Source of the DNA: a virus
Direction: 5' to 3' (one strand)
DNA length: 21,071 nt
IMG/VR virus record: IMGVR_UViG_3300042308_000293
Coordinates: 1 to 21,071 of that record
Shown: in pieces, positions 3,948 through 21,071 of the stretch
Position numbering within the stretch: position 1 is the stretch's first letter
Layout of the letters: the number at the start of each line of letters is the position of its first letter
Position numbers and translations under genes: made by a program
The notes under the pieces: model-generated
Seen by the model: the letters and a program-made list of their open reading frames with translations, nothing else
Told to the model about the DNA's origin: nothing
Databases searched by the model: none

Positions 3948-4380
3948 ACCAGAATACGTACACTAGAATTTTTACCGGGCATATTCCAAACTGAAACTAA
4001 TAGTCAGTTCTTAGCAGCCACGCTCGACCAATTAGTCAATCCTCCTGTAACACAAACTATACAAGGATTCGTGGGTAGTAAATTTGGTTATGGTGTTGAC
4101 GCTAAAGATTACTATGTAACAGAACCAAATAAAGTTCGTAGAGATTATCAATTAGAACCGGGTGTAGTATTCTTAAAGGACAATGAAACTACTGCCTACG
4201 ATTTTATTAGTTATCCTGGCATAATTGACTCATTGAAGTTGCAAGGTGCTATCACTAGTAGAAACGATGAGTTATTTGAAAGTCAGTTCTATAGTTGGGA
4301 CAGTTTTACTAACTTAGATAAGATCATCAACTATAATCAGTATTACTGGTTACCTGACGGTCCTCCCGCCGTAATAGTTG
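3945..4380 (+). other. Conserved N-terminal region of the giant protein
   Basis: Residues 1-145 are the most recognisable start of this family. They show LPGIFQTETN, a Leu/Gln helix (QFLAATLDQLVNP), GFVGSKFGYGV, TEPNKVRRDYQLEPGV, FISYPGIIDSLKLQGA and FNLDK-like NYNQYYWLPDGPP near the end. Related cyanophage proteins begin in the same way directly after gp6, which supports the chosen start and suggests that this end docks on a conserved baseplate partner. The docking role is inferred. Confidence 0.6.
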
Positions 4381-7300
4381 CGGCTTCAACTGTCTTTACA
4401 GAAAACGATTACATAGTCAATTCACTGCCAGAAGCATACAATATCAGAGCAGTAGGCGCAGGTGTTGGTACTAATAATCCAACAATCACCTTATTAAGAG
4501 GTGGTACATATAATTTTATAGTAGATCAAAACACAAGATTTTGGATACAGGGCGAGCCGGGAGTAACAGGCTATAGTCCTACGCAGCCTAATTTAAATAC
4601 TAGAGACGTATACGGCGTTAACAACAACGGTGAAGACCGCGGCGTAGTATCATTTCAAGTACCTCAAAAAGATGCACAGAATGAATTCAATTACCCCGGT
4701 AATAATACAGTAGGTGTTGTTAGCACAAGACCTTTTAGCCAGATCAATGGTGCAAGATTAGCAGACATTGGCGGTATTGATGGGGTCACGGCACTAAATG
4801 GTAGAACAGTTATGTTCTACAATACCGGCGTAACTAACGAGATAGGCTATGTTAGTTCATTCTTTGATCAATCAGCATATGATAGAAATACAGGATCTAT
4901 TTCCTCACCGCTGACTATCAATGCTAGTTCGATAAATGGATTAGGTGCGATCACAGTAAGCAACGTTTCACAATTACAGATAGGACAGACTGTAACATTT
5001 GTAGGAACTGGTTTTGGTGGTATACAGGCATATAATGCTGACGTAGAAAATGCTATATCTACCAATAGTTTGATTGTAGGAAAGAAATATTTCATCGATC
5101 AAGTGGGAACGAGTAACTGGATCAATCTTGGCGTAGCATCAAGCGCAATAGTAGACGCACAGATTGTAGGTACACAGTTAAGAGTTTATAAAACTGTTTC
5201 TGGTTCATTCAGTATAGGTGATACATTAAATGGTTCAGGCGTAACTACAGGCACCAAGATTCTTGATTTTGATGAGATTGCTACCAACAATAATTATTTG
5301 AATGCGTCAAGTGTCACAGTAGGTGATTCATATCTTGTAAGATCATTTGTAGACGGTGCAGGAAATACAACCGACTTCACAGCGATGGGCGCTCCTGCTT
5401 CTGGCGTTATCAACGGTAGCATAGTAGGTACTGTGTTGACTGTGAACAGTATATCATCAGGTGCAGTCAATGTAGGATCTTATATAACAGGTCCCGGCAT
5501 AGTAAAAGGTACTTACATCGTAAGTCAAGGTACTACGGCTAACACATATGTTATAAACAAGACACAGGTCGTCACTGGTCCTATGACATTACAGCCAAGC
5601 GTGAACACATTGTTTACGGCTACTGCTGTGGGTTCAGGTTCAGGAACAGTGAGCATACCTACATATACAGTAAGCATCAACCAAACTGTTGCTAGAAGTA
5701 ATATCAATGTCTATCCTATACAAGAAGGTACTATATTCACAGCAGCCGCAAACGATGCAGGCAACGGCTTTGTAATCCCATTTAATCCAGACATTTATTA
5801 TGTGACTGGTATTAATACTGGAACAAATCAAATCACTATAAGCCAATCATTAAATGGTCCTACGTTCTTACCTACTAGCCCCGCTAGCGGTTCTATGACT
5901 GTTAGAATCAATCAAGGATTGTATGAGCAAGGATTTTATACTCAAGTAAACGACACATTCTATACTGTAGTATTCTTGGGTGATGCAGATGATCCTGTTC
6001 TTAGCCTAAGACCTGCAGGTTCTATACCTATCGAACAAAAGATCACACCGCAATACGGTACACAATATGTTGGACTGCATTTCGTTAAAAATTCTACTGG
6101 TGTGATACAAGAATTACCGTACATCTCTGCCCCATTAGACACATTATATTATCAAGACGGTACTAATCCTAACAGAGTAGGCGTCATCAAATTGATTGAA
6201 AACAATGAGACTAACTTGATCGATGTTGACGCTGATATATTAGGTAAAACGAATTATACATCAAAGAATGGTGTAGTATTCACTAATGGTTTGAAAGTCT
6301 CATTTGATGGAGATGTCATACCACGAAGTTATCTAAGTGGTGAATACTATGTAGAAGGTGTGGGCACTGCTATAGAATTAATATCTGTGACTTCATTGGA
6401 AGTTCCGGAGCCCTTCACTACATCAACATACAGCCCATATGATATATTACCATATGACATAGGACCGTTTGATGAAGGTTTAAATATACCTAACAATTCA
6501 GACTATATCACAATAGCAAGAAATAGCATTAACAAAAATGCATGGGCGCGTAGCAATCGTTGGTTCCATATACAAGTCATACAAGCGACTGCGGATTATA
6601 ACGATAACTCAGCCATACTTGATGAATATGCCAAATCAACAAATAAAGCAAAAAGACCTATACTTGAATTTTATCCTAACTTAAAATTATTCAACTCAGG
6701 TACTATAGGTAAAACTGCTGTAGATTTTGTTGATACTAGAACAACCAATGCATTTGAGTATGTAGAGAATCAACAGAATTATTATCCTGATGTACAAACA
6801 TATACCGCATATCAAGGAACTGTAAATTCTAACAACACACCTATCACTGTAGCCAATTTATTGATAGATCAATATTATGCTATAGAGACTTTAGGATCGA
6901 CTTCTACTGTCACTTGGCAATCATTGGGTGCAATACAAGATCAAGATGGTGGATTTGAAATAGGTGTAGAATATATCATAACAGATTTGGGTACCACTAC
7001 ACAGGCTAATTGGAATTTTATCGCTGGTACTACTACTACCCCAGTCTCATATTCGGTGGGCAATAAATTTACAGCAAAACAATCAGGTACAGGTACCGGC
7101 AACGGTACTGCGCTCAAAGTATTGTTCCAAACATCACTTGCCGGTGTATTGAATTCTGATGAACTTGCATCTGGTCAAATGTATACGATCACTTCATTGG
7201 GTACCACTCAGTGGAATAATATAGGCTATGTCGGTACTCCTATAATAGGTGGCACATTTACTGCTAGCGGCCCTGCTATTGGTACGGGTACTGCTATACA

Positions 7301-10300
7301 GGGTAACGGAACTGTAAAACAAAAAACTACCACGACAGTAACTATCGATCCAGATCATGTCACGGGCACATTTAGTCAAGGTCAATGGATAAATGATCTA
7401 AGATTGAATAATCCAAGCGCGTTGCCTATAGGTACTAGAATACTTTCTATAGAAAATACAGATCCTTATCAGATGACTGTATACTGGCCTATACCATCTA
7501 ACAACATAGTTTCGGCAGTGACCAGTGCATCATTTGTAGCAAGCACAAAAGACAATACTGATTTATTGTTGTTTCCCGGCGCTAGAGTTGTGTTCGCAGC
7601 AGATGAAAACCTATTGATAAGAAACAAGATTTATGTTGTGGGCTTCAACAACACTGGATCAGAATCATATCCAGTCATCACATTGACTGAAGCAGAAGAC
7701 GGCTTAGTTTTAGAAAACGACATGTTCAGCGTTGAGAAAGGTTTCTCTAATAAAGGAAAAACTTTCTATTTCGATAGTGATGAATATAAGCAAGCACAAC
7801 AGAAACAAACAGTTAACCAAGCACCGTTATTTGATATCTTTGATGAAAACGGCATAAGTTATGGTGATGAAACTGTCTACAACAGTTCGTCATTTACTGG
7901 ATGTAAACTGTTTAATTACAAGATCAGTGAAGGTATAAATGACACTATTCTAGGATTCCCTATCAGTTTTAGTTCTATTAACAACGTAGGTGATATCTCA
8001 TTTGAAGTGTCATTATATACACAGCAATTTGATTATATCGACAATGGAAGCTCAGTCACTTCATATGTAAATAATGGATTTGTTTATGATTACAATACCA
8101 GAGATGAATATGATAGATTGATCGGCTGGCAGACAGCAGTAGCACCAAGTACACAGTATCAAGTATTTCAATTTGAATATGTTGCGAATGATCCTGCATT
8201 AGTCTTAGAGCCAGAACAGACTTTTGATTATGTAGTGACTGTAGACGTACCGCAATTAAGTGTTGATACAACGATATGGCCTAGCCTCGAAGTTTACAAC
8301 AACAATAATATATTGACATTGGGTACAGATTATACTGTAGAAAACAAGATCGATTCTACAGTGATCACTATCAAGTTGTCTGAAGATATAGACACACCTA
8401 TTGAAGTGTTGATATTGAGTAACAAGGTAAGTGCAGATGCTTATTACACTATACCTATCAACTTAAGCAACAACCCATTCAATAGCAATCCAGATAATGT
8501 AGACATCGGTGACATACGCGGTCATTATCAAACTATTTTTGATAATAATCCAGACACATCAGGCGTGATGTTTGGTTCTAACAATTATCGCGATCTAGGT
8601 AACATGGTACCATGGGGCAATAGAATCATACAGAATAGCGCAAGCCTTGTATTGCCCGGCGCATTCTTGCGTAACCCAAGACATAACTTATTTGATTCTC
8701 TATTATTCAACAGCAGAGAATATATCAAGTTCAAGACATTATTAGTCGATACCACAGACAAACTTAACATTCAGCAAAAATATGATCCGGCGCTTATACT
8801 TGATCTAGCATTGGATACTATAACTTCAGTCAAGAGCCAAGACCAACCATTCTTCTGGTCTGACATGATACCTAACAAGGCACCATATATCAGTCAGACA
8901 TATAACTTTAATAATCAAGCAGAGACTAGTGTATTTCCATTAAGCAAGATTTACGATTTTAGTACTGCTAACTATGATGGTGTTCTAGTTTATCTACAAA
9001 GAAAGATACAGGGCATCGTAGTTACTAAGCAATTAGTAAGAGGCACAGATTATGTAGTAAGCATAGATAGTCCTAGCGTGACAGTCAACGTGTTTTTACA
9101 AACCAATGATAAAATCATAGTCAAAGAATATAATCAAACTTATGGTTCTTATATCCCCAACACTCCAACTAAGTTGGGTCTATATCCATTATATCTACCT
9201 TCAGTAGTATTGGATAATACATACATAGAACCTACTTATTTCATACAGGGTCATGATGGCTCATATAATAAACTATATGGTGATTATAATGAAACTCTAG
9301 GAATGTTAGTAGACTTCAGAGATCAAGTGTTATTAGAGTTTGAGACTAGAGTTTATAATAACATCAAACTAAGTAGAACATTACCTATCGAAACTGCTGA
9401 AATCGTTCCGGGTTATTTCCGCGACACAGCATTATCATATGTTGAATTCACAGAAATATATAGTAAGAATTTCTTAGATTGGATCGGTCAAAATAGACTT
9501 GATTACAAAACACAATTATATAACGCTAACGATCCTTATACATACAACTACAGAGACAGTAGTTTAAAATTAGATAATAGCACAGTGTTGCAAGGATATT
9601 GGAGAGGTATATACGAATACTTGTATGATACTTCTACACCAAATTTGACACCGTGGGATATGATCGGTTATGCAAATAAGCCTGTCTGGTGGGAAGATCG
9701 TTATGGTCCTGCCCCATACACAAGCAATAACTTAATTTTGTGGACTGACCTACAAAACGGTATTGATTACAATGGCGGTCAACCAGTAGTAAGAACACTA
9801 TATAAGAGACCGGGATTGCTAGAGATAATTCCTGTTGATAGTCAAGGAGAACTAAGACAACCAATAGATGCAGTCATAGGTAACTACAACCAACTGACAT
9901 TTAAGCGCGACTGGAGAGTAGGTGATGACGCACCTGTAGAATATTCATATCGTAAGAGTTCTACATATCCTTTCGATCTAATGAGACTTGAGGCATTATT
10001 GAAGCCAGCAGCATTCTTTAATTTGGGTGCTGACTTAGACAACTACAAATATAACGCTGAGTTCAATCAATTCTTGGTCAATGAAAGAAATCACTTAGTA
10101 CCAGCCAACATAGAAATTTATGGTAATGGTACTGCCAAGACAAGTTATATCAACTGGGTAGTTGACTACGAAAAACAATTGGGCGTTGATGCTACTAAGA
10201 ATATCAAAGAATTGCTAACTAATCTTGATGTAAGATTGGTATATCGTTTAGCAGGTTTTAGCGACAAGACACTATTGAAGTTTTTCGTTGAGAAGGGAAC

Positions 10301-13300
10301 ACCTGAGTCACGTAATAGTTCATTGTTGATTCCTGACGAAAGTTATCAGATTCTACTATATCAGAATCAACCTATGACTAAGTTGATATATTCTGGTGTT
10401 GTAGTACAAAAAATGCAAGAGGGTTATGCTGTGTTCGGCAACAGCCAGACTACAGCATTCTTTAAAATATTGAAGCCTATATTGAACGGTCCTAAGAAAA
10501 GAGTCACTGTTCAAGATGCAACGGTAAATGTAGCAGACAATTATTCTAGCGAAGAAGAGATCGTGCCGTATGGTACAATCTATTACAGTCTGCAAGATGT
10601 AAGCCAATTCTTGATGAGTTATGGTGCTTGGCTAACAGCCAATGGAGCAGTGTTTGATGATCAGATACAAAACGTTGCTATCACTTGGAATCAAATGGTA
10701 GCAGAATTCTTGTATTGGACACAAACTGGATTTATCGACGGTAGCATTATCACATTGAATCCTTCTGCTAGAAAGTTGACTATCGATAAAGAAAGTCAAG
10801 TTGTCCAGCCATTGACATATGATAACAGTAATTTTGTATTGAACAATAATATGTATCCAATACAAAATAAAGATTTGAGCATTTTCAGAGATGGTACTAG
10901 ATTTAGCATATCACCATTAAATGAAGGTGATGCAGTATCATATGGTCAATTTAGTTTGAGCAATATTGAACATGCGGTCGTATTTCAAAATGAGACATTG
11001 TTCAACGACACTATCTACAACTTGGAATCTGGATTGAAACAAAATCGTATCTATGTTCGCGGCACTAAGAGCGGTGAATGGAACGGTACATTGTTCGCAT
11101 CAGGATTCATCTATAATCAAGATAACATACAAGAGTGGGTACCCGGATTAAAATATACTAAGGGTGCCATCATCAAGTACAAGAACAAATACTTCACAGC
11201 ATTGAAGATAGTACAACCAAATCTAAAATTCAAAGAAGATGAATGGAAAGAAACTGACTACGATGAAGTTCAAAAAGGATTGCTACCTAACAGTAGCACA
11301 CGTAGTTATGAAAGCGCATTGTACTATAATGCAAATAAAGCAAACCTAGAACAAGATGCAGACTTGTTGAGTTTTAGTTTGATAGGATTCAGACCACGTG
11401 AGTACATGGCAAGCGCAGACTTGACAGATATCACACAGGTAAATGTTTACAAAAATCTAATCAGAGAAAAAGGAACATTGAATGCAGTGAAGGCATTCAA
11501 GGGTGCAAACTTACCGCAAGGCGGAATCGATTATGATGTCTATGAAAACTGGGCTATAATGCAAGGCACGTTCGGCGGTACGTTGAACGATAACTTTGTT
11601 CAGTTCAGATTAAAAGAATCTAATCTCTCAAACAACCCGTCTATTGTAGGTATCACTGACGGCAATGATATAGAAGGTGCACAACAATTAGTACCGTTAT
11701 ATTCATTGTTTAATTACGGCAGACCTGTCACCGATCCTAATATACTACCTGAAGTAACTTCAGACATTCCTAGCGCAACATTCCCTACAGCGGGATATGT
11801 AAACGTAAACGATGTTAAGATGTCAGCATATTTCTATAGCAATCTACCAACTGCTGTGGGTAAAGACGGTCTAACTGTATCGTTATCACAACTTAATGTC
11901 GGCGATTATGTATGGCTTGCTGACTATAAAGCAAGTTGGCAGATAATGACACCATCTAGCGTCGGTAGAGTATTGTTAGTTCGCAACAATTTAAACGGGA
12001 CTAGCACAGTTCGATTTGCCGATAATCATAACTTGAATCGTTATGATATATTTGCTATCATCAATTTTGACGGCTCAGTAAACGGTTACTATGTAGCAAA
12101 TAATATTATTGGTCCTAAAGAAGTATTGATAACGTTGACGTTATCTCCTAGCGTGAGAGCGGTTGTAGGTGAAGGGGCAGCATTGAGATTCGCCTCACAA
12201 AGAGTTACTAAGCCCGGCAATGTACAAAATCTACCGTTATTGAACAATGAATTCACAAAGAATACAGTTTGGGTAGATGAGAATAATGACGGAGGTTGGG
12301 CAGTATATCGCAAGAACATAAACTTTAAATATCAGCGAGAATTCACAAAAGAAAATAGTCAGAAGTTTGGTTCCGCGGTAGCGTACACTCCACTCATAGA
12401 TTATTTGTTTAGTGATCCTAACTTGGGTAAGGTATATCGTTATCAGTTTGATGCAACCACTGGTGATTATGATCTTGATGAGATATTGTCCGGGGTCACA
12501 ACTTTCGGTACTACTATAGTTCATGAGCAGAACATAGTAGCAATCTCACAACCAGAGAACACACCTAAAGTTTCATTGTATACTGTAAACGATACAAGAG
12601 TCACTGATAACATCATATTATATCAAGAAATATTAGCATCAAGCATAGGTGCTTCTATAACTAATTTCGGTAAGGGATTGGCACTGTCAGGTGATACTAA
12701 TTGGTTGTTCATAAGCGACTACAATGAAAATCCTATAGGCACAAGAAACAAAGTACATGTATTGCGCAAGAGAAATCAGATCATCGATGTAGATAATACC
12801 ACTGTTCTTGACGCCGCGGCGACATATCAGATACTTGATCCTGGCACAGTTAATTGGGTTGATCTAGCACTTGAACCTATCGCTAATGAAACAGGCATAT
12901 ACCTTAAGTGGGACGGAACGACAACACCGACAGGCGAGGGCACGGCTATACGTTGCGATTATCAATATGTCGCTACTATTGACGGGGACGCTACAATAGA
13001 TAGATTTGGTTATTCATTGTCCACTAATAATGATGGCACTATACTAGTCGTAGGTGCACCAAGCAAAGATTTAGATGTGGTGAATCAAGGTCGTTCATAT
13101 GTATACAATAGATTAGTACAGAATTATGAAGTACCCATAGGAACAACAGCCCCGTTGACATTCACACTAGCATGGAGCCCTACTGTAGGGTTACCACTGA
13201 CAGTTTCTAAAAATGGAATCGTTATAGATCCTAGCGATTATTCGTTCTCCGGAACTACGTTTATTTTTACCGGCACTTATGCAGTAGGTGATATCATCAC

Positions 13301-16300
13301 AGTAAGTGGCAATCAGTTCGTCAAAATACAAGAGATGAATGTCTCAGAAGACAATACTAGAATAGGCCCGCAGTTTGGACATTGTGTCGATAGCAACACC
13401 TTTGCTACTGAAATATTAATAGGTGCTCCTTTCTATATTAGTTCTATTAATTCGGAAGGATCAGTGACTAGATATACCAACGGGTCTGCAAGATTCGGAA
13501 CAATCACTAGCACTTCAGATGTAAACGTAACGACTACTAGACAATTATTGATAAATGGTTACTTAGTAAGCATACCAGCCGGCAATGCGAGTGCGGCCGC
13601 ATCGGCTATCAATAATGCTACGATCACAAATGTAGTTGCATCTGCGAACGGTTCTAAATTAACCATTAGCCTAATTAATTCTAATCTAGCATTAAGCAAT
13701 CAAGAATTATTGATATCAGTGACAAACAATGTTACATTGTCTGAGTTAGGGTTTCAACTCTATGCTAAGACACAGACCATACTCAATCCGCACTCGACCG
13801 GACCTAGCCAGTTCGGCACTGTTATCAAGTTTAACGAACACAATAGCGTAGCAATTAGCGCACCATCTGGTACTCGTTATGCGCTAACTACTTTTGATTT
13901 TATTGATGATGAAAATTATCAAAATGATACAATTTTTGATAATAATTCAACACAATTCTTAGACTCATTTGCAAACGCAGGTGCTGTATACGCATATGAC
14001 TATCTAAGTAACTATAATGAATCGCTATTGAACATAGGTAATTACACTTATGCTCAAAGCGTAAATGATACTAGCCTAGATTATGGTGCTCAACCTAGAT
14101 ACGGTTCTGCTCTAGATTGGTCTGCTGGAAGAATTGTTATAGGATCTCCTGACTATAGACCAGAAGACCTAGACGGACAAGTAGTGATATATGATAACAC
14201 ATTAGGTACTACAAACTGGATAGTTTTGAGACAGACTAGCCCTGTCGTTGACATCGACAAGGTTTATAATGTACAACTGTTCAGCGCAGAGACTAACAAT
14301 ACACTCAGCAATTTAGATTACATGGATCCATTGCAGGGTAAATTATTAGGAGCGATCAGACAAAATATAGATGTAATATCTAATATCGATCCTGCAGGTT
14401 ATAACAACTCAGCCGCTACTGCAACACTAGTATGGGGCGAAGCACAATTAGGAACTATATGGTTCGACACATCAAATATACGTTATGTCGATTATCATCA
14501 AAACGACAACAGTTATAACGCACGTTATTGGGGCTCATTATTCCCAGGCAGCGATGTTGCAGTATACAGTTGGGTAGGCAGTACTGTGCAGCCTTCTGCA
14601 TATACTGGCCCAGGAACTCCTAAAGATATCTCTAGTTATACTGTACAAACAGTATTGAATAGTTCAAATACTATAGTACCTGTATATTATTTCTGGGTAA
14701 GAAACACAGGCATCATTTACAATGGTAAGTCATTATCTGATATAAACATAACGCAATATTTGATCAATCCAAAATCATCCGGTATCAGTTATATGGCACC
14801 AGTCAGACCTGATGCAGTAGCATTGTATAACGTAAAGCCATTCTTAAATTCTAATGATACTGTATTGCAATTAGGCTATAGCACCGGTAGCCAAGACAAT
14901 CCTGCGCATCAACAGTTTACATTGATTCGTCAAGATTTCCCCGATGATTTCTTGCCCGGTGTTCCCGGAACAAGAGGGTATGTCACACCTCAAACATTAT
15001 ACGATAGACTGTTAGATAGTATGAGCGGTGTTGACGAGACTGGTGCTGTGGTGCCAGATCCGTTCTTACCAAAAGCAGTTCAATCAGGCGTATTAGCAAG
15101 ACCAAGACAAAGTTTCTTCTATAATCGCTATAAAGCGATACAGAATTATCTACAATATGCCAATACTATCATGGCATTATATCCTATATCTGAGATTAGA
15201 TCATTCAACTTCTTGAATACCTCAGGAAGATATTATGATACTACAGACTATTGGGAAAACATCAACTGGTGGGCACCTGGCTACGATAACAACACTAAGG
15301 CAGTATTACAGGTTCAAGTGTATGCTGACCTGTCTACATTGGAAGTCTCTATAGGAACTATAGTAACTGTAGCACAAAACAGCAATGGATCTGCTGAAAC
15401 ATATCGTTATGACGGTGAAGGCGTATGGACTAGAATTGGATTACAGAACGGTACTATCAGATTCAAAGATGAATTATATGATTATTCTGCGGCTGGATAT
15501 GGTTTCGGCGGCACGTTCTATGATACAGATAGTTTCGATGTGTTCCCGAGCGAAGAAACACGTTGGATCATACGTGCATTGAACGAGCAGATTTATACTA
15601 GTGAATTATTGATATACAGAAACAAGAGTTTGATACTATTGTTTGAGTATATCCAAGAAGAGACTATAGAAAATCAAAACTACTTGCCATGGTTGAATAA
15701 GACATCATTGATTGATGTATCACACAAAGTTCGCGAACTGAGAGAATTAAAGAATTTCGTCAGCGATAACGAACAGTTCCTAGAAGGTTATATCAATGAG
15801 ACTAAACCTTATCACGTAGTGATCAAAGAATTCTCATTCGACTATGAAAGAACTGATGTATATCCAGGCACATTGACTGACTTTGATCTACCTGCAACTT
15901 ATGATACCAATATCGATAAGTTCGTCAGTCCGGAACTCGTATACAGCAATCCAAATACAGATTATGAGTTTTTACCAGATGATTCAGTATGGACTAACGA
16001 AAAATATACTGAATGGTTTAACAACTATGGTGTCAGTTTAACAGGTCAAGAAAACTATCATATAGCAAAACTTGAATCATACTTGACATTATCAAGTCAG
16101 AATATGATCGTAGATAATCCACAAGGATTCCCAGTTAACGGTACTGTGATTATCGGTGAAGAAAAAATAAGTTATGCTAACGTAGATAGAGGCACGGGAT
16201 TGATCACTGGTTTGACTAGAGGTGTAGACCAAACTACAATCACTGATCATCTACCAGGCGCACAAATACGTATAGATTTGCCAGGAGTCTTAGTATTAGA

Positions 16301-19300
16301 CACAGGTAGAAACTATGCCAACCCACCAAGAATCTTAGCGTCTATTGATACTACGATATATCCAGAACCTAAACAAGAGGCTGTGCTTGAAGCAGTGATG
16401 AGTCTAGGTAGCGTTGTGGCAATTAATGTCATTGATCCGGGTCAAGGTTATGCTGTGACGCCAGAGATCGTGATAGATCCTGCTGAGAGATTCTCATTCA
16501 ATAGCAGTAACGTTAGTGTTGCTAACAATACTATCGATATCTATGCACCAATATTGGTGACAGGTGATCTAGTTCGTTATGTTGAAGGCACAGAAAACGT
16601 AGGTGGATTAGCAAACAAACAATACTATTATATCAACGTGTTGAGTTCAAGTCCTACAACTACATTAGCATTGTATACAACATATGCTGATGCGTTGAAC
16701 GATAATAATCGCGTAAAATTCTTGACTCAAGGTACAGGAACTCAAAACTTTGAGTTTGGTGCTAGAGCAGTACCTATCACATCAAGCACTCCGATCAGAG
16801 AAAACAATATCACGTTGCGTTTCGACAGAACAACATACAATACACAAGTATCTGACTGGACTGCTAACACTTTCTATGGTTCTGAATTCGTCAGTTATAC
16901 ATTAGAAGGTGCAAGTAGTGAGGTGTCATTGGCATCCGTTCAACCTGATATCAACAGAATATTATCAAGCGCACAGGGAACTGCATTTCCTATAGTGAAC
17001 ATAACTAATGATAGAGATATAGAATGGTCGTCATTTGAGAGATCAATCGACTATATCGTATCTAATAATGAAATTAAGTTAGTATATACTAGTAGCCCCG
17101 GAGACGAAAACCCATCTGGATCTACTGTAGGTTTCACTATTGGTATGCCAGTAAAATTCACTGGTGTCACTGGCCCGCAGATCATAGCAGGTCAGACATA
17201 CTATATTTCTGAAATCGTAAGTCTTAGCGGATTCAAGATTAGTTTGACACAGGGCGGTAGCACACTAGCATTGACCCCGAACTCATACTTAGATATGAAG
17301 ATGTTCACAGCGCAAGTCATAGATACTGCTGAGATCACTACAATATATTCAGGTTACAGAAATGTAACAGCAACTACTCAAAGCAACGATGCAGTCAAAG
17401 TAGAATTGACTGCTATAGGTACCGGTGGAACTAACGGGCTATACACAAACTTGCCGGTATACTTCACAGGAACAATATTCGGTGGACTAGAAGCAGACAA
17501 GATTTATTACGTAGTCTCAGTACTGGGCAGTGAACTATTCACGTTGTCAGAAACCCCTGATCCGGCTACAGTACGTGTGTTAGAGATGAATGCGGCAAGC
17601 CAGATAATAGTACAAAACACAAATGGTTTAGAAGTCAATGATCCTATCGTATTCGATAGTATGTCAATTAATGGCGAAGCAGTAGGTACATTTGGAAACA
17701 TACAACGACAAGTGATATACTATATTAAGAGTATAGGTATCAACGTGATCACTATAAGCACCACACCAGGCGGTAGCACATTCAACACGGGTGTTGTTGC
17801 TCCGGCAAATGGCAATTATTGTTTCATCACTAGTCAGGCTAGTGTTAAGCAGTTGACCAACGCTACAGGTAGTTGCACTATGGTAGTGTCATTACCAGTA
17901 AGCCCGGGCCAAGTCGACGGACAGAAATTTACTTTCTATCCTACATCACAGCACTATGCAGATATCACAGCACCTAACTTGACATATGGTAATCTTTTAC
18001 AAAAGAACATTGAACAAACATTATCGGATAATGATGTAGCGTTCTCATCAAACAGAACAGGTTTATATACCGGATTCCCATTCACTGTGTCAGCAACAGT
18101 AGGAGCAAATATTCCTAGCAACATCGGTGGACTACAATCAGGCAAAACATATTATGCATACGACATAGGAAATGTAGAAATAGTATGTCAATCATCTACT
18201 TCTTCAACGCTAGTCTACAATGCATCATTCACTGGAACTACGATGAATGTCACATCTATCACTAGTGGTTCAGGTGTGTTGTATCCAGGCACATTAGTGA
18301 CTGGTACCGGTGTTCAAACAAATACCTATATCAAGAGTTACATAAGCGGCACAGGTGGAGTAGGAACATATGAAATAAGCAAAGATTATTTCGTTCCAGT
18401 AGTAACTACCGACACAACATCTGTGACTGGTATATTAACAGTAGCAACTGATTACAATACTAACATGATCTATGAGGGAATGCCTATAGTGTTCTCATTG
18501 ATACCGTTGGGCGGTATAGTATCAGGATTCACTTACTATGTTAGACATATCATAAGCGGTACACGATTTACTGTAAGCCAAGTTAAAGACGAAGCATCTA
18601 TATCACTGACAGTTAGCAATGGAACTATGTTGGGTACAGGTAGCCCTTCATTGAAGGCATACTTACCACTAGGATCATTGACGACTGGCTACAAGTACGT
18701 AATACGTGATGTGGGTGATGGCACACCATCGACCGCTTGGTCAACTATAGGTGCCACATATATAAACAACGTAGCGACATTGACTCCGGGTCAAAAAATC
18801 ATCATTTATACTACAGGAACTACTAACTGGAACATCATAGCCGGAACTACCGGAGTTACATACAATGTCAATGATATCCTCACAGTAGAAAATCCCGGTA
18901 TATTGACGGTAGGAGCAGGTACTGCATTTATAGCGGAATTCACAGCCACAGGCACCGGGTCGTTGACTGATGCAGGTAGTGCTACAGTAGTCTTGGCAGC
19001 ATCTGGCGATACTGCTACATTAGATCAAGAAATAATCGCAGATCCTACATTTGATGTTGGATATATACTGGGCGGTTATAGTGTTGTTATAAACAACGGT
19101 GGTCTAGGATTCACACAAAATAACACTATCACTATACCGGGAACATTATTGGGCGGTACTACACCTGATAATGATTTGACACTAACGGTATCAAGAATCA
19201 ATGCGATAGAAGCGGGTGCGTTTAGTTGGTCATTACCAAGAGAGAGTGACGGAGAGATCACAAAAGTTATAGAGTCCGGAACACCGATCGGTACTGCTAC

Positions 19301-21071
19301 AAACTATTTCTTGAAAGTAACCGGCACTAATACTTTCAAGGTATACAGCGACCCATTGATGCAACTACCAGTAAGCGGAATCAATTTCCCGTATCAAGGA
19401 TTCACACAGAAAAACGTGACGCAGATATCTGCTACTAGTATAACAATGAGTAACGTTACTGGTTTAGCAGTGAATGATAATATAGTATTCACTAACTTAC
19501 CTACAGGGTTGAGCATAGTAGAAGGGCAAACTTATTATGTTCGTTCTATAATAAGCAATAACATTACCATAGCGACAGAACCAGGTGGTACAGCGATAAC
19601 AGTGGGTACAGCAGGCCCGTTCACTACAAATTATCCTGTAGCGACTAAGCCAGGGTCATTCATGTTGCTACCAGAACCGTTCGCATTCACTCCAAGTATA
19701 GTTAAGTATAACAATCGTGTTTGGATGTGTATTGTTTCTAATAACGATGACGAGTTTGTGTTTGGTAAATGGGAACAATTGAATAGCGGTGATCGCAGAT
19801 TGAATGCATTAGATCGTGCTAAGGGTTACTACGATCCTGATGTGAACATGCCCGGTACAGACTTGACACAATTGTTCACTGGATTGACATATCCTAACAC
19901 TACTTACAAGGGTAACGCATTCGAACCTGATCAGCAGTATCCGATAGATACTAGATTAGTAGATACACCATTTGATCCTACTCAGGTTAATGTTCCTGCT
20001 ATTGAATGGGATGGACAAAATTACATCGCTCCTGCAAACTTACCTAACTATGCGGCAGTAATCGCAGATATTGAAATACAAGATGAGTGGTTGCTATCAA
20101 CATTAGCAAATCAAACATTGTCGTTGACCGATATCACTAAGGGTGATGACGTTTACTTGATGACATCAGCCAACTCACCGACTCCGTTATTTAAGAGCGT
20201 AGATAAAGTACGTTGGAGCACTAATGGATTTGTAGTACCTATAGGTACACCTCCCGAATCAGCAGACTTCTTCAAAGTAAGATTGATCGCGGCGGGCATA
20301 CCATTGAATGCTGTCACATATCATGATGGCTTGTATGTGGCTGTAGGTAAGAGCATACTTACAAGCACAGATACTACGATGTGGTATGAGAGATTTAGAT
20401 TCCCGATATTTGACCAATTTAGAGATTTGTTTGATGTTTCTTACGTAGAGACTACTGCATTCTCTGGTTATATCGCAGTAGGTGTAGACTTGCTCAATGA
20501 CGCATTGATATTAAGAAGCACAGACGGAGAGTTTTGGACTAGAGTTACAGGATTGAACGATAGAACTCTAAAGGGAGTGGCATCTGGATTCAATACGATT
20601 TATGTAGTGGGAACTAGTGCTGGATTGTTAACTAGCCCAGACGGAGTAGTTTGGCAGCAAGTATCATTGCCAGGTTCACCTAGCGACTTCAATGCGGTCA
20701 CGTTCGCAGATAATACATTGGTTATAGTCGGCAATGGTGGCCGTGTATATGTATCTACAGACGGCGTGAACTTCACACAGAAATTTACAGGCACACCACA
20801 AAATCTAAACGATGTGATGTATGTTGAAGAAAGAGATCAATGGACTATTGTTGGAAATAATAATACGATATTACAAACTCAAAATATCGCAGCCAACCCG
20901 GTTACATGGGATATCACTCAGGTGTTCTCAAGCCCTGATCCTGACTATACTGTGCAAGGTGATCCATTCTTGAGCGGCTACGGTCCAGAAGAAATGGTGC
21001 CCGGCATCGTATCTGATCAATTAACTATGATTGTTAATACAAGAGCAGGAACAACTTGGCCAGCAACTGAG
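3945..21071 (+). CDS. Giant modular virion protein, at least 5,709 residues, 3' end outside window
   Basis: The frame opens at ATG 3945, one base after the gp6 stop, and stays open for 5,709 codons to the last base. The N-terminus (TLEFLPGIFQTETNSQFL, then DYYVTEPNKVRRDYQLEPGV) and many internal blocks resemble very large structural proteins encoded beside gp6 in T4-like cyanophages and pelagiphages, usually annotated as hypothetical or virion structural. It occupies the position of T4 gene 7 (baseplate wedge, 1,032 residues), but I see no residue-level match to gp7. Domains in order: conserved N-terminus (1-145), cupredoxin-like (180-250), small repeat modules (376-1124), conserved mixed region (about 1560-2550), seven FG-GAP-like blades (2800-3420), conserved scaffold (3426-3986), GLTRG and GxGY modules (4066-4180), TYYV repeats (4196-5220), Asp-box repeats (5454-5660). 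No signal peptide is seen. It is Asn/Thr/Ser/Tyr-rich with only about seven Cys. A virion role is likely from context; receptor or partner binding is inferred. Confidence 0.9.
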   Translation, partial: MTRIRTLEFLPGIFQTETNSQFLAATLDQLVNPPVTQTIQGFVGSKFGYGVDAKDYYVTEPNKVRRDYQLEPGVVFLKDNETTAYDFISYPGIIDSLKLQGAITSRNDELFESQFYSWDSFTNLDKIINYNQYYWLPDGPPAVIVAASTVFTENDYIVNSLPEAYNIRAVGAGVGTNNPTITLLRGGTYNFIVDQNTRFWIQGEPGVTGYSPTQPNLNTRDVYGVNNNGEDRGVVSFQVPQKDAQNEFNYPGNNTVGVVSTRPFSQINGARLADIGGIDGVTALNGRTVMFYNTGVTNEIGYVSSFFDQSAYDRNTGSISSPLTINASSINGLGAITVSNVSQLQIGQTVTFVGTGFGGIQAYNADVENAISTNSLIVGKKYFIDQVGTSNWINLGVASSAIVDAQIVGTQLRVYKTVSGSFSIGDTLNGSGVTTGTKILDFDEIATNNNYLNASSVTVGDSYLVRSFVDGAGNTTDFTAMGAPASGVINGSIVGTVLTVNSISSGAVNVGSYITGPGIVKGTYIVSQGTTANTYVINKTQVVTGPMTLQPSVNTLFTATAVGSGSGTVSIPTYTVSINQTVARSNINVYPIQEGTIFTAAANDAGNGFVIPFNPDIYYVTGINTGTNQITISQSLNGPTFLPTSPASGSMTVRINQGLYEQGFYTQVNDTFYTVVFLGDADDPVLSLRPAGSIPIEQKITPQYGTQYVGLHFVKNSTGVIQELPYISAPLDTLYYQDGTNPNRVGVIKLIENNETNLIDVDADILGKTNYTSKNGVVFTNGLKVSFDGDVIPRSYLSGEYYVEGVGTAIELISVTSLEVPEPFTTSTYSPYDILPYDIGPFDEGLNIPNNSDYITIARNSINKNAWARSNRWFHIQVIQATADYNDNSAILDEYAKSTNKAKRPILEFYPNLKLFNSGTIGKTAVDFVDTRTTNAFEYVENQQNYYPDVQTYTAYQGTVNSNNTPITVANLLIDQYYAIETLGSTSTVTWQSLGAIQDQDGGFEIGVEYIITDLGTTTQANWNFIAGTTTTPVSYSVGNKFTAKQSGTGTGNGTALKVLFQTSLAGVLNSDELASGQMYTITSLGTTQWNNIGYVGTPIIGGTFTASGPAIGTGTAIQGNGTVKQKTTTTVTIDPDHVTGTFSQGQWINDLRLNNPSALPIGTRILSIENTDPYQMTVYWPIPSNNIVSAVTSASFVASTKDNTDLLLFPGARVVFAADENLLIRNKIYVVGFNNTGSESYPVITLTEAEDGLVLENDMFSVEKGFSNKGKTFYFDSDEYKQAQQKQTVNQAPLFDIFDENGISYGDETVYNSSSFTGCKLFNYKISEGINDTILGFPISFSSINNVGDISFEVSLYTQQFDYIDNGSSVTSYVNNGFVYDYNTRDEYDRLIGWQTAVAPSTQYQVFQFEYVANDPALVLEPEQTFDYVVTVDVPQLSVDTTIWPSLEVYNNNNILTLGTDYTVENKIDSTVITIKLSEDIDTPIEVLILSNKVSADAYYTIPINLSNNPFNSNPDNVDIGDIRGHYQTIFDNNPDTSGVMFGSNNYRDLGNMVPWGNRIIQNSASLVLPGAFLRNPRHNLFDSLLFNSREYIKFKTLLVDTTDKLNIQQKYDPALILDLALDTITSVKSQDQPFFWSDMIPNKAPYISQTYNFNNQAETSVFPLSKIYDFSTANYDGVLVYLQRKIQGIVVTKQLVRGTDYVVSIDSPSVTVNVFLQTNDKIIVKEYNQTYGSYIPNTPTKLGLYPLYLPSVVLDNTYIEPTYFIQGHDGSYNKLYGDYNETLGMLVDFRDQVLLEFETRVYNNIKLSRTLPIETAEIVPGYFRDTALSYVEFTEIYSKNFLDWIGQNRLDYKTQLYNANDPYTYNYRDSSLKLDNSTVLQGYWRGIYEYLYDTSTPNLTPWDMIGYANKPVWWEDRYGPAPYTSNNLILWTDLQNGIDYNGGQPVVRTLYKRPGLLEIIPVDSQGELRQPIDAVIGNYNQLTFKRDWRVGDDAPVEYSYRKSSTYPFDLMRLEALLKPAAFFNLGADLDNYKYNAEFNQFLVNERNHLVPANIEIYGNGTAKTSYINWVVDYEKQLGVDATKNIKELLTNLDVRLVYRLAGFSDKTLLKFFVEKGTPESRNSSLLIPDESYQILLYQNQPMTKLIYSGVVVQKMQEGYAVFGNSQTTAFFKILKPILNGPKKRVTVQDATVNVADNYSSEEEIVPYGTIYYSLQDVSQFLMSYGAWLTANGAVFDDQIQNVAITWNQMVAEFLYWTQTGFIDGSIITLNPSARKLTIDKESQVVQPLTYDNSNFVLNNNMYPIQNKDLSIFRDGTRFSISPLNEGDAVSYGQFSLSNIEHAVVFQNETLFNDTIYNLESGLKQNRIYVRGTKSGEWNGTLFASGFIYNQDNIQEWVPGLKYTKGAIIKYKNKYFTALKIVQPNLKFKEDEWKETDYDEVQKGLLPNSSTRSYESALYYNANKANLEQDADLLSFSLIGFRPREYMASADLTDITQVNVYKNLIREKGTLNAVKAFKGANLPQGGIDYDVYENWAIMQGTFGGTLNDNFVQFRLKESNLSNNPSIVGITDGNDIEGAQQLVPLYSLFNYGRPVTDPNILPEVTSDIPSATFPTAGYVNVNDVKMSAYFYSNLPTAVGKDGLTVSLSQLNVGDYVWLADYKASWQIMTPSSVGRVLLVRNNLNGTSTVRFADNHNLNRYDIFAIINFDGSVNGYYVANNIIGPKEVLITLTLSPSVRAVVGEGAALRFASQRVTKPGNVQNLPLLNNEFTKNTVWVDENNDGGWAVYRKNINFKYQREFTKENSQKFGSAVAYTPLIDYLFSDPNLGKVYRYQFDATTGDYDLDEILSGVTTFGTTIVHEQNIVAISQPENTPKVSLYTVNDTRVTDNIILYQEILASSIGASITNFGKGLALSGDTNWLFISDYNENPIGTRNKVHVLRKRNQIIDVDNTTVLDAAATYQILDPGTVNWVDLALEPIANETGIYLKWDGTTTPTGEGTAIRCDYQYVATIDGDATIDRFGYSLSTNNDGTILVVGAPSKDLDVVNQGRSYVYNRLVQNYEVPIGTTAPLTFTLAWSPTVGLPLTVSKNGIVIDPSDYSFSGTTFIFTGTYAVGDIITVSGNQFVKIQEMNVSEDNTRIGPQFGHCVDSNTFATEILIGAPFYISSINSEGSVTRYTNGSARFGTITSTSDVNVTTTRQLLINGYLVSIPAGNASAAASAINNATITNVVASANGSKLTISLINSNLALSNQELLISVTNNVTLSELGFQLYAKTQTILNPHSTGPSQFGTVIKFNEHNSVAISAPSGTRYALTTFDFIDDENYQNDTIFDNNSTQFLDSFANAGAVYAYDYLSNYNESLLNIGNYTYAQSVNDTSLDYGAQPRYGSALDWSAGRIVIGSPDYRPEDLDGQVVIYDNTLGTTNWIVLRQTSPVVDIDKVYNVQLFSAETNNTLSNLDYMDPLQGKLLGAIRQNIDVISNIDPAGYNNSAATATLVWGEAQLGTIWFDTSNIRYVDYHQNDNSYNARYWGSLFPGSDVAVYSWVGSTVQPSAYTGPGTPKDISSYTVQTVLNSSNTIVPVYYFWVRNTGIIYNGKSLSDINITQYLINPKSSGISYMAPVRPDAVALYNVKPFLNSNDTVLQLGYSTGSQDNPAHQQFTLIRQDFPDDFLPGVPGTRGYVTPQTLYDRLLDSMSGVDETGAVVPDPFLPKAVQSGVLARPRQSFFYNRYKAIQNYLQYANTIMALYPISEIRSFNFLNTSGRYYDTTDYWENINWWAPGYDNNTKAVLQVQVYADLSTLEVSIGTIVTVAQNSNGSAETYRYDGEGVWTRIGLQNGTIRFKDELYDYSAAGYGFGGTFYDTDSFDVFPSEETRWIIRALNEQIYTSELLIYRNKSLILLFEYIQEETIENQNYLPWLNKTSLIDVSHKVRELRELKNFVSDNEQFLEGYINETKPYHVVIKEFSFDYERTDVYPGTLTDFDLPATYDTNIDKFVSPELVYSNPNTDYEFLPDDSVWTNEKYTEWFNNYGVSLTGQENYHIAKLESYLTLSSQNMIVDNPQGFPVNGTVIIGEEKISYANVDRGTGLITGLTRGVDQTTITDHLPGAQIRIDLPGVLVLDTGRNYANPPRILASIDTTIYPEPKQEAVLEAVMSLGSVVAINVIDPGQGYAVTPEIVIDPAERFSFNSSNVSVANNTIDIYAPILVTGDLVRYVEGTENVGGLANKQYYYINVLSSSPTTTLALYTTYADALNDNNRVKFLTQGTGTQNFEFGARAVPITSSTPIRENNITLRFDRTTYNTQVSDWTANTFYGSEFVSYTLEGASSEVSLASVQPDINRILSSAQGTAFPIVNITNDRDIEWSSFERSIDYIVSNNEIKLVYTSSPGDENPSGSTVGFTIGMPVKFTGVTGPQIIAGQTYYISEIVSLSGFKISLTQGGSTLALTPNSYLDMKMFTAQVIDTAEITTIYSGYRNVTATTQSNDAVKVELTAIGTGGTNGLYTNLPVYFTGTIFGGLEADKIYYVVSVLGSELFTLSETPDPATVRVLEMNAASQIIVQNTNGLEVNDPIVFDSMSINGEAVGTFGNIQRQVIYYIKSIGINVITISTTPGGSTFNTGVVAPANGNYCFITSQASVKQLTNATGSCTMVVSLPVSPGQVDGQKFTFYPTSQHYADITAPNLTYGNLLQKNIEQTLSDNDVAFSSNRTGLYTGFPFTVSATVGANIPSNIGGLQSGKTYYAYDIGNVEIVCQSSTSSTLVYNASFTGTTMNVTSITSGSGVLYPGTLVTGTGVQTNTYIKSYISGTGGVGTYEISKDYFVPVVTTDTTSVTGILTVATDYNTNMIYEGMPIVFSLIPLGGIVSGFTYYVRHIISGTRFTVSQVKDEASISLTVSNGTMLGTGSPSLKAYLPLGSLTTGYKYVIRDVGDGTPSTAWSTIGATYINNVATLTPGQKIIIYTTGTTNWNIIAGTTGVTYNVNDILTVENPGILTVGAGTAFIAEFTATGTGSLTDAGSATVVLAASGDTATLDQEIIADPTFDVGYILGGYSVVINNGGLGFTQNNTITIPGTLLGGTTPDNDLTLTVSRINAIEAGAFSWSLPRESDGEITKVIESGTPIGTATNYFLKVTGTNTFKVYSDPLMQLPVSGINFPYQGFTQKNVTQISATSITMSNVTGLAVNDNIVFTNLPTGLSIVEGQTYYVRSIISNNITIATEPGGTAITVGTAGPFTTNYPVATKPGSFMLLPEPFAFTPSIVKYNNRVWMCIVSNNDDEFVFGKWEQLNSGDRRLNALDRAKGYYDPDVNMPGTDLTQLFTGLTYPNTTYKGNAFEPDQQYPIDTRLVDTPFDPTQVNVPAIEWDGQNYIAPANLPNYAAVIADIEIQDEWLLSTLANQTLSLTDITKGDDVYLMTSANSPTPLFKSVDKVRWSTNGFVVPIGTPPESADFFKVRLIAAGIPLNAVTYHDGLYVAVGKSILTSTDTTMWYERFRFPIFDQFRDLFDVSYVETTAFSGYIAVGVDLLNDALILRSTDGEFWTRVTGLNDRTLKGVASGFNTIYVVGTSAGLLTSPDGVVWQQVSLPGSPSDFNAVTFADNTLVIVGNGGRVYVSTDGVNFTQKFTGTPQNLNDVMYVEERDQWTIVGNNNTILQTQNIAANPVTWDITQVFSSPDPDYTVQGDPFLSGYGPEEMVPGIVSDQLTMIVNTRAGTTWPATE
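4482..4694 (+). other. Cupredoxin-like beta domain (no copper ligands seen)
   Basis: Residues about 180-250 read TLLRGGTYNFIVDQNTRFWI, a turn with GEPGVTGY, then DVYGVNNNGEDRGVVSFQVP. This is the pattern (L-x-R-G-x-T-Y-x-F, G-V-x-N-N-G, G-x-x-x-F-x-V-P) of a beta-sandwich domain common in marine phage structural proteins. The His and Cys that ligate copper in true cupredoxins are absent, so a structural or binding role is likelier than redox. The fold is inferred from pattern only. Confidence 0.5.
5070..5432 (+). repeat. GTTxW-type modules, copies 1-2
   Basis: Copy 1 (5070-5174) reads VGKKYFIDQVGTSNWINLGV; copy 2 (5313-5432) reads VGDSYLVRSF, then TTDFTAMGAP and GSIVGT. Shared pattern: hydrophobic-G-x-x-Y-x-I/V, then GTT/S-x-W/F, then two to three residues and a hydrophobic-G/A. 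Many aquatic phage tail proteins carry such 35-50 residue modules with the core GTTDF. They are probably small beta units. Boundaries are approximate. Confidence 0.55.
5178..5591 (+). repeat. GxGVxxxT modules, copies 1-2
   Basis: Copy 1 (5178-5312) has GSFSIGDTLNGSGVTTGTKI and copy 2 (5424-5591) has NVGSYITGPGIVKGTYIVSQ. The shared pattern is x-G-x-x-hydrophobic-x-G-x-G-V/I-x-x-x-T-x-I, usually followed by a Y-x-hydrophobic strand. A third copy lies 13 kb downstream at 18216-18410. Copies interleave with the GTTxW modules, as expected if modules were shuffled and then diverged. Confidence 0.5.
5712..5868 (+). repeat. Isolated early TYYV-type module
   Basis: The translated segment carries QEGTIFTAAANDAGNGFVIP followed by DIYYVTGINTGTNQITISQS. 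The hydrophobic-Y-Y-V strand, short turn and x-I-T-I-S strand match the repeat that forms a cluster from 16530 onward. The similarity is low and boundaries are approximate. Confidence 0.4.
6858..7316 (+). repeat. Tandem GTTxW-type modules, copies 3-5
   Basis: Three adjacent copies: 6858-6955 (IDQYYAIETLGS, VTWQSLGAI), 6954-7121 (GVEYIITDLGTTTQANWNFI, ending SGTGTGNGTAL), and 7161-7316 (GQMYTITSLGTTQWNNIGYV, then GGTFTASGPAIGTGTAI). The last is the best match to the usual module: Y-x-I-x-S-L-G-T-T-x-W, F-T-A-x-G, and a GTGTA end. The copies differ at most positions, so they are old or fast-evolving rather than recent duplications. Confidence 0.6.
9219..9370 (+). other. IQGHDGSY conserved block of the giant protein
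   Basis: Residues about 1759-1809 read YIEPTYFIQGHDGSYNKLYG, then DYNETLGML, FRDQVLLEFETRVYNNIKL. The H-D-G-S-Y followed by Y-G-D-Y and an acidic helix ending in R-hydrophobic-Y-N-N-I-K is a stretch I recognise as recurrent in large structural proteins of marine T4-like phages. H-D could suggest a catalytic or metal site, but no further active-site residues are identifiable and a structural role is equally possible. Confidence 0.4.
9393..11580 (+). other. Long conserved mixed alpha/beta scaffold of the giant protein
   Basis: Residues about 1817-2546 differ from the Thr/Gly-rich module regions. They are richer in charged and aromatic residues and contain plausible helices (for example LSYVEFTEIYSKNFLDWIGQ, DLMRLEALLKPAAFF, DVSQFLMSYGAWL). 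Trp-rich turns such as GYANKPVWWEDRYGP and FKRDWRVGDD are strongly reminiscent of the corresponding part of cyanophage giant proteins. I take this as a core scaffold. No enzymatic motif is seen. Confidence 0.45.
11130..11262 (+). other. Small W/Y module resembling carbohydrate-binding type 5/12 pattern
   Basis: Residues about 2396-2440 read QEWVPGLKYTKGAIIKYKNK, YFTALKIVQ, then DEWKE. The W-x-P-G-x-x-Y-x-x-G-x-x-V/I-x-Y-x-x-x-Y-x-A...W order resembles the small chitin-binding-type module found in many phage tail proteins. A related, shorter version is at 19689-19800. Binding to a glycan is inferred only. Confidence 0.35.
12342..14204 (+). repeat. Seven FG-GAP-like blades (candidate beta-propeller)
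   Basis: Seven repeats begin with F/Y-G at 12366, 12504, 12666, 13005, 13374, 13812 and 14100 (residues 2808, 2854, 2908, 3021, 3144, 3290, 3386). The clearest is FGYSLSTNNDGTILVVGAPS followed by GRSYVYNR. Others are QFGHCV with EILIGAPF and EGSVTRY; QFGTVI with VAISAPSG and GAVYAYDY; and YGSALD with RIVIGSPD and GQVVIYDN. The first three are more diverged (KFGSAVAY with GKVYRYQF; TFGTTIV with IVAISQPE; NFGKGLAL with WLFISDYN). FG-GAP repeats form the seven-bladed propeller of integrin alpha chains and occur in bacterial surface proteins. The Ca-binding DxDxDG-type loop is not preserved. Blades are separated by inserted modules at about 12804-12950, 13116-13360 and 13500-13790. Confidence 0.7.
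12804..12950 (+). repeat. GTTxW-type module inserted between FG-GAP blades 3 and 4
   Basis: The segment reads AATYQILDPGTVNWVDLALE and ends in GTTTPTGEGTAI. It keeps Y-x-I-x-x-x-G-T-x-x-W and the GTA-like end of the modules near 7.1 kb and 18.7 kb. Its place inside the blade array suggests a module inserted in a propeller loop. Confidence 0.45.
14220..15903 (+). other. Second conserved scaffold region of the giant protein
   Basis: Residues about 3426-3986 contain blocks I recognise from cyanophage-type giant structural proteins: QGKLLGAIRQNID, then LGTIWFDTSNIRYVDYHQND, ARYWGSLFPGS, a YYFWV strand, PDAVALYN, WENINWWAPGYD, PSEETRWIIRALNEQIYTSE leading into LLIYRNKSLILLFEYIQEE, and INETKPYHVVIKEF. 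The final part (about 15540-15850) is helical and charged. The region interrupts the beta-module pattern and is probably structural. No catalytic motif is seen. Confidence 0.5.
16140..16485 (+). other. GLTRG and GxGY small modules
   Basis: The first module (16140-16275) reads GTVIIGEEKISYANVDRGTG then LITGLTRGVD and ends HLPGAQIRI. It is a compact beta unit (G-E-E-x-I-x-Y, G-L-T-R-G, H-x-x-G-A) frequent in marine phage tail proteins. It is followed by two GxxY-x-x-P units: LDTGRNYANPPRIL and VIDPGQGYAVTPEIVID (to 16485), separated by VMSLGSVVAINV. The D-P-G-x-G-Y-x-x-x-P pattern is a known repeat in such proteins. All functions are unknown. Confidence 0.5.
18216..18410 (+). repeat. GxGVxxxT module, copy 3
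   Basis: This copy reads TSITSGSGVLYPGTLVTGTG, VQTNTYIKSYISGTG, then GTYEISKDYFVPV. It is the fullest version of the module at 5178-5591 (x-G-T-L-V-x-G-x-G-V-x-x-x-T-x-I, then G-T-Y-x-hydrophobic-S). It lies between two TYYV modules. Confidence 0.5.
18678..18965 (+). repeat. Tandem GTTxW-type modules, late copies
   Basis: Two adjacent copies: 18678-18770 (TTGYKYVIRDVGD, TAWSTIGATY) and 18780-18965 (PGQKIIIYTTGTTNWNIIAG, then YNVNDILTV and FIAEFTATGTGSL). The second has both the GTTNW core and the F-T-A-T-G-T-G end that mark the module elsewhere in the protein. Confidence 0.55.
19689..19960 (+). other. Conserved block before the Asp-box repeats
   Basis: Residues about 5249-5339 read SIVKYNNRVWMCIVSNNDDE, FVFGKWEQL, RLNALDRAKGYYDPD, NMPGTDLTQLF, GLTYPNTTYKGNAF. 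The first part repeats the W/Y small-module pattern of 11130-11262. The second (N-A-L-D-R, Y-Y-x-P, M-P-G-x-D-L-T-Q-L, Y-P-N-T-T-Y-x-G-N-x-F) is a block I recognise from related marine phage proteins. It is probably a linker or base for the following repeats. Confidence 0.45.
20304..20924 (+). repeat. Five Asp-box / BNR-like repeats
   Basis: Five repeats of about 32-40 residues: 20304-20399 (LYVAVGKSILTSTDTTMWYE), 20427-20546 (YIAVGV, ILRSTDGEFWTRV), 20568-20663 (IYVVGTSAGLLTSPDGVVWQ), 20688-20786 (LVIVGNGGRVYVSTDGVNFT) and 20805-20924 (WTIVGNNNTILQT, TWDITQV). Each has hydrophobic-x-x-V-G, a Gly-containing turn and S-x-D-G-x-x-W/F, the Asp-box seen in sialidase, Ycf48 and other beta-propellers. 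The last copy lost the Asp-box proper. Sialidase catalytic residues cannot be identified, so this is a structural or binding propeller, with possible further blades beyond the window. Confidence 0.65.

Follow-up and report, generated by a model that had tools for sequence, protein, structure and literature searches.

A predicted FG-GAP propeller with seven integrin-alpha-type blades and exchangeable loop modules in a giant phage virion protein

Locus and gene content

The stretch analysed here, referred to as the window, is the complete IMG/VR virus record IMGVR_UViG_3300042308_000293 (21,071 bases), of which near-identical relatives exist in IMG/VR. It encodes two baseplate wedge proteins and a giant virion protein, and the latter harbors the subject of this study, a stretch of seven FG-GAP repeats predicted to fold as a propeller like the head of integrin alpha chains. 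The genes are as follows.

48..500, + strand: gp25-like baseplate wedge protein (Pfam GPW_gp25, 28.4 bits over cut-off)
548..3943, + strand: gp6-like baseplate wedge protein (phrog_10646 'baseplate wedge subunit', E 2.6e-254)
3945..21071, + strand: giant virion protein, running past the window end (phrog_10938, E 5.7e-208)

The full giant protein comprises 6540 amino acids (aa) in the near-identical contig L003, and a version of 6483 aa in contig L004 is 51-58% identical. Its core matches phrog_10938 ('virion structural protein') on two pieces (E 5.7e-208 and 1e-51), and the homologue in phage PA5oct is marked ESI-MS/MS (electrospray ionization tandem mass spectrometry) in its record, indicating a virion protein. 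A core piece also matches 60 of 50,697 phage records by tblastn, all at less than 60% identity, including Pseudomonas PA5oct-type, Klebsiella, Salmonella and Erwinia phages, Atu_ph07, Phosso, and SCTP-2. Contigs bearing relatives of the giant protein reach 364 kb, so the source is probably a jumbo phage.

A predicted seven-bladed propeller

The propeller stretch covers approximately residues 2795-3431 of the giant protein (nucleotides 12327-14237) and was modelled as a separate piece, in which model residue r starts at nucleotide 12291+3(r-1). A sequence-only reading of the window had proposed seven FG-GAP blades interrupted by inserted modules, and its seven F/Y-G starts were recovered at model residues 26, 72, 126, 239, 362, 508, and 604, with uneven spacing (46, 54, 113, 123, 146, and 96 residues) and four clear cores (GAP, GAP, SAP, and GSP). 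The GTTxW unit that it had noticed between blades was located in the strand 3-4 loop of blade 3. The blades and their surroundings are listed below.

12297..12314, + strand: 5' flank motif W-A-V-Y-R-K, kept in the propeller-free PA5oct
12327..14237, + strand: whole predicted seven-bladed propeller with inserts, model residues 13-649 (AlphaFold2 model, VIA-align)
12348..12491, + strand: blade 1 (model strands, blade profile)
12492..12635, + strand: blade 2 (model strands, blade profile)
12636..12983, + strand: blade 3 with insert (model strands, blade profile)
12984..13337, + strand: blade 4 with insert, the repeat found by Pfam FG-GAP_2 (Pfam, model strands)
13338..13784, + strand: blade 5 with insert (model strands, blade profile)
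13785..14060, + strand: blade 6 (model strands; weak with the blade profile)
14061..14237, + strand: blade 7 (model strands, blade profile)

The fold was predicted with AlphaFold2 from alignment A2, which holds 53 sequences, namely the window and 52 of 80 loci. The 28 omitted loci comprise two that match the window exactly, near-duplicates recognised by the table or by their sequence ends, the partial L039 and L072, and L046, which has in-frame stop codons. Censuses of relatives kept the best 80 of 171 and the best 80 of 510 loci, and thus favour close relatives. The model (predicted local distance difference test, pLDDT, 86.7; predicted template modelling score, pTM, 0.89) has strands forming seven sets of about four. 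Its best Protein Data Bank (PDB) matches in Foldseek are integrin alphaIIb heads (E 4e-10), and all 50 chains listed by VIA-align are integrin alpha chains, the best with a Z of 37.5 over 342 residues at 2.7 Å. These integrin-alpha matches span model residues 10-644, most starting near 10 and many ending near 638. Seven blades together with matches over this whole span indicate that the repeats close into one ring with the insertions as loop modules, as the sequence-only reading had envisaged. Without coordinates at hand, we infer an integrin-like closure of blade 7 by the N-terminal strand 13-19 and a base of the propeller made up of strands 2-8 and 643-649.

Sequence comparison points to the same fold class. 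The window-clade profile has integrin alpha-4 as its best PDB sequence match (E 0.0021), and Pfam FG-GAP_2 scores 26.8 bits on a 670-aa piece (cut-off 23), 22.8 bits on a longer piece, and matches 48 of the 53 aligned members at E <= 0.1. In the profile search that the sequence-only reading had suggested, Pfam alone passes only one window repeat (blade 4), short of the four it had asked for, and the other six require the family model or the fold. A blade hidden Markov model (HMM), trained on six blades of the 53 aligned members, finds six repeats of 15-29 bits in the full-length copy L003. At a threshold of 5 bits, all 128 adjoining core segments lack any match to it, as do 134 of 136 shuffled slots (the slot being the region between the conserved core blocks in which the propeller lies). 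Blade 6 is the weakest repeat, with 4.6 bits from the iterated HMM. Chance repeats were considered and ruled out by the fold, the integrin matches of two separate profiles, and the HMM controls. Judged by the predicted model, the stretch holds an entire FG-GAP propeller, with all seven blades, that belongs to the integrin-alpha fold class.

Insertion site and distribution among relatives

In PA5oct, which lacks the propeller, about 20 residues separate the W of the first flank motif from the VD of the second, and the window has the propeller at this place. Its site of insertion is a short connector, which is probably a beta-hairpin turn. The slot measures about 230 aa in GAP32 and about 1530 aa in Atu_ph07 and Phosso; by the blade HMM, no FG-GAP repeat was found in the slot of any of the five isolates examined. 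A LamG-like domain in the SCTP-2 slot was read by eye and set aside, as Pfam gave nothing there at E 0.1. Scanning with the SCTP-2 core turned up no relative.

Among uncultured relatives the propeller is widespread. Scanning with the post-slot core of seven phages gave 510 loci; each of the best 80 reaches 357 bits or more against the propeller profile, a score to which GTTxW modules elsewhere in the protein may contribute. Every one of the 77 complete slots of the window clade carries seven or more blade matches (42 have eight and two have nine); where there are more than seven, the surplus is read as an additional match within the blade-5 insert, which contains an R-F-G string. In all 77 comparisons with the window, the pre-slot core is better conserved than the propeller (median identities 63% and 49%), which would suit an exposed domain, host contact not being proven thereby.

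A scan with the PA5oct post-slot core yielded 56 distant loci, every one with at least two blade matches. Seven matches occur in 38 of the 55 complete slots, and the remainder have six (10 slots), eight (three), two (two), four (one), or five (one). Direct reading of ten distant slots and the iterated blade HMM both find FG-GAP repeats, the iterated counts leaning towards repeats because that model was trained partly on the same slots. Independently of the blade HMM, Pfam FG-GAP_2 matches 33 of 34 non-redundant distant slots at E <= 0.01; with default filters, the propeller profile A2 gives weak matches in only 2 of the 56 loci. The match between a profile of these 34 slots and the window profile extends over the whole length (99.8%, E 3.5e-30), with the window inserts falling in gaps of this alignment, and the 34-slot profile likewise has integrin alpha-4 as its best PDB match (E 4e-10).

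The window and L172 propellers gave nothing at 1e-5 in tblastn searches of the 50,697 phage records. A cellular origin was also considered and set aside: a scan of genome contigs with profile A2 gave two weak loci in Enterovibrio metagenome-assembled genomes, too little to point to one.

Loop modules and the constant blade-6 loop

Three long inserts and one conserved loop interrupt the blades.

12771..12959, + strand: blade-3 strand 3-4 insert, GTTxW-like module; absent in 12/53 relatives
13131..13292, + strand: blade-4 strand 3-4 insert, 52-276 aa in relatives
13482..13760, + strand: blade-5 strand 3-4 insert; Flagellin_IN weak match in one member
13869..13979, + strand: blade-6 strand 2-3 loop, T-T-F-D...F-D-N-N signature, nearly invariant

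The blade-3 insert of the window has 63 residues, and 12 of the 53 aligned members, including L021, L025, and L027, have only a turn of 6-11 residues in its place, which demonstrates the grafting of a module into this loop. The proposal of a propeller with modules grafted into its loops, on a protein encoded next to baseplate genes, is supported, the extra modules lying in loops of blades 3, 4, and 5. Elsewhere the blade-3 loop mostly holds one GTTxW-like module (36 of 53 members fit a loose pattern), with an apparent tandem of two in L015, L019, and L022 (three members read) and a different module of about 89 aa in L047, L050, L054, and L055. Distant relatives carry a CBM5/12-like module in the same blade-3 loop and another after the GAP of blade 2; such modules were found in 16 of 55 slots by regular expression and in 10 of 34 by Pfam CBM_5_12. 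As far as the fold can indicate, the 3-4 loop inserts of neighbouring blades should share one face of the wheel.

The blade-6 loop is constant to an unusual degree. Twelve positions of the loop region (R529, T533, T534, F535, D536, D539, D546, F549, D550, N552, T554, and G564) are identical in all 53 members, although the AlphaFold2 model has low certainty for residues 533-555. A more permissive form of the signature (FDxGxTTFD or TxFD..TxF) occurs in 134 of 136 slots, distant relatives included, 130 times at the matching place, and outside the slots it has 13 matches in 575,825 aa. The loop resembles a binding site for an unchanging partner, and our guess is that, being acidic, it could bind a metal or such a partner.

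Other features of the giant protein

Further GTTxW-type modules like the blade-3 insert occur at giant-protein residues 382, 978, 1010, 1080, 4918, and about 4950 (L003 numbering), and a CBM5/12-like module lies inside the conserved core (window 11121-11261). This part (core residues 659-705) gives the best fold matches of the core model, among them a baseplate protein of Milano with a Z of 6.8 over 45 residues; its nearest folds are chitin-binding modules and the baseplate and tail-fibre proteins of Milano and 7-7-1. Near the C-terminus, the repeat region at window 20592-20771 has S-x-D-G-x-x-W strings and by eye resembles a second propeller, of the BNR/YCF48 type; Pfam gives a weak DUF6242 match there (18.3 bits, cut-off 29). 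Pfam E1_FCCH, a domain of ubiquitin-activating enzymes, scores 27.2 bits, just under its cut-off of 29.5, in the C-terminal portion of the L003 protein (17837-21259, piece aa 697-768).

Proposed function and alternatives

Integrin-type propellers are best known as the adhesion heads of animal cells. In the mechanism proposed here, the virus would be an uncultured T4-related jumbo phage whose giant virion protein, encoded beside gp25 and gp6, uses the propeller as a stiff platform for display at the baseplate. Held in place by its hairpin base and by the conserved blade-6 loop, the propeller would present on its other loops a set of exchangeable modules (GTTxW, CBM5/12-like, and others), which probably make contact with glycans or proteins of the host surface. 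We give this scheme as a whole an even chance of being correct. The fold, the number of blades, the insertion site, the exchange of loop modules, and the unusual constancy of the blade-6 loop are results of computation, and the position on the mature baseplate, the face that points outward, and host binding are inferred. Host adhesion is plausible and unproven, and an adhesion platform is the most likely single function, about evenly balanced against internal docking and the other roles.

Several observations weigh against this scheme. The most conserved surface loop, that of blade 6, is not the variable one, and the blade-5 insert hardly varies in length (93-98 aa in 53/53 members). The giant gene of SCTP-2 is not beside its gp6 gene. 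T4 gp7 gave nothing significant against three core alignments (blastp, hmmsearch, and hhalign), so that placement at the baseplate comes from gene order and homologues.

The first two of these observations suit the main rival, docking to another virion protein. Here the propeller would be an internal hub of the virion, its blade-6 loop binding a tail or fibre protein and its inserts acting as spacers that make no direct contact with the host. The 12 identical positions, the signature shared with distant relatives, and the fixed length of the blade-5 insert all favour such a hub, whereas the strong variation of the blade-3 and blade-4 loops among relatives, in length as well as in content, and the CBM5/12-like modules in the blade-3 loop and blade 2 suit contact with variable surfaces. 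We regard internal docking as a serious possibility, although one that falls short of an even chance.

It is improbable that the giant protein belongs to another part of the particle, such as the head, neck, or tail whiskers, with a propeller unrelated to the baseplate. phrog_10938 is filed under 'head and packaging', which together with the SCTP-2 gene order would fit such a location, as would the failure to recognise T4 gp7 by sequence, Pfam, or fold. The giant protein has no match to the Pfam gp7 domains (helical, V, and VI), all three of which T4 gp7 itself matches; hmmsearch of PDB chains with the core alignments returned no gp7; and fold searches with the model of the conserved core (window 9147-11648, pLDDT 75.0) had no T4 gp7 among the matches listed, an absence that is not proof. 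Membership of the T4 gp7 family was accordingly set aside, gene order being the only point in its favour, and we name the protein gp6-linked rather than gp7 because no test recognised T4 gp7. Against a location elsewhere in the particle, the giant gene lies directly 3' of gp25 and gp6 in the window, Phosso, Atu_ph07, PA5oct, and GAP32, an order like that of T4, in which gene 7 follows gene 6, and in PA5oct a gene noted as T4-like gp10 lies three genes downstream of the giant gene. A lactonase- or arylesterase-type enzyme acting on the host surface is very improbable. In its favour, Pfam Lactonase and Arylesterase match 7 and 3 of the 53 members at E <= 0.1; against it, FG-GAP_2 matches 48 of the 53 and far better, and the fold matches listed are integrins.

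A display platform at the baseplate also allows a broader and doubtful suggestion, that this uncultured jumbo-phage lineage has fitted an integrin-class head into a connector of its gp6-linked giant protein and uses it as a scaffold on which small binding modules are swapped in fixed loops, with recognition separate from the tail fibres and the blade-6 loop as a constant anchor or trigger contact. Many uncultured phage contigs encode a tail-linked jumbo-phage protein of which a close structural match to the integrin head forms a conserved part. If host contact is true, the propeller would serve recognition independently of the fibres, and its loop modules, being readable from sequence, would aid in guessing the host range of phages known only from metagenomes.

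Comparison with known systems

The phage propeller shares with the integrin alpha head its seven blades, FG...GAP repeats, and ring closure, and integrin alpha-4 is the best PDB sequence match of two profiles. However, it lacks DxDxDG calcium loops (0/53 members by one regular expression), has long strand 3-4 inserts in blades 3-5, and lies within a phage virion protein that has no other integrin domain in a Pfam scan, there being none among the matches up to E 1.

The giant proteins of phrog_10938 in PA5oct, RaK2-type phages, Atu_ph07, and Phosso share the N-terminal, pre-slot, and post-slot blocks and mostly the gene order, but differ by the FG-GAP-free slots of the isolates examined. Other viral FG-GAP proteins in BFVD, from giant viruses, cyanophage S-TIM5 (H6WG31), and Atu_ph07 ('hemagglutinin'), have similar predicted propellers but are separate genes and do not lie inside a gp6-linked giant protein. 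In Atu_ph07 (NC_042013.1, L229), the 'Hemagglutinin' gp320 (243018-244199) has four FG-GAP_2 matches and stands beside genes annotated as tail sheath. In Phosso (PV764938.1, L231), two neighbouring giant genes (48338-57826 and 57900-68978) hold most of the 66 FG-GAP_2 matches of this jumbo phage (E <= 10). Cyanophage ACG-2014b (KJ019044.1, L228) encodes a 6422-aa structural protein (53565-72833) directly after gp25 and gp6, with no detected homology to the core or propeller of the window giant protein; it has repeats common to Phosso and Atu_ph07 and a short stretch in common with residues 4115-4179 of the window protein.

In a literature search, with subscription papers and preprints outside its reach, no paper was found that joins an FG-GAP or integrin-like propeller with a phage baseplate or jumbo phage, and papers naming FG-GAP together with phage were off topic, judged by title. 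According to the parts of one account that we consulted (PMC4901313), the propellers described on phage baseplates take part in receptor binding or are suspected of it. It describes phiKZ gp131C as a seven-bladed propeller at the periphery of a jumbo-phage baseplate, with a suspected and unproven host role (PMC4901313). Likened by description alone, it shares with the present protein a seven-bladed propeller in a baseplate-tied jumbo-phage protein, but the description consulted does not mention an integrin-type FG-GAP repeat. The same source describes the receptor-binding protein Gp45 of the siphophage phi11 as a trimer with a five-bladed propeller platform, whose best DALI match is glutamine cyclotransferase, and PRD1 P2 as a distorted five-bladed propeller (PMC4901313). 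Gp45 thus resembles the proposed arrangement in having a propeller as the platform on a baseplate receptor-binding protein, but differs in having five blades. Phage baseplate propellers are already known, and one of the integrin class with a module-exchange loop is new.

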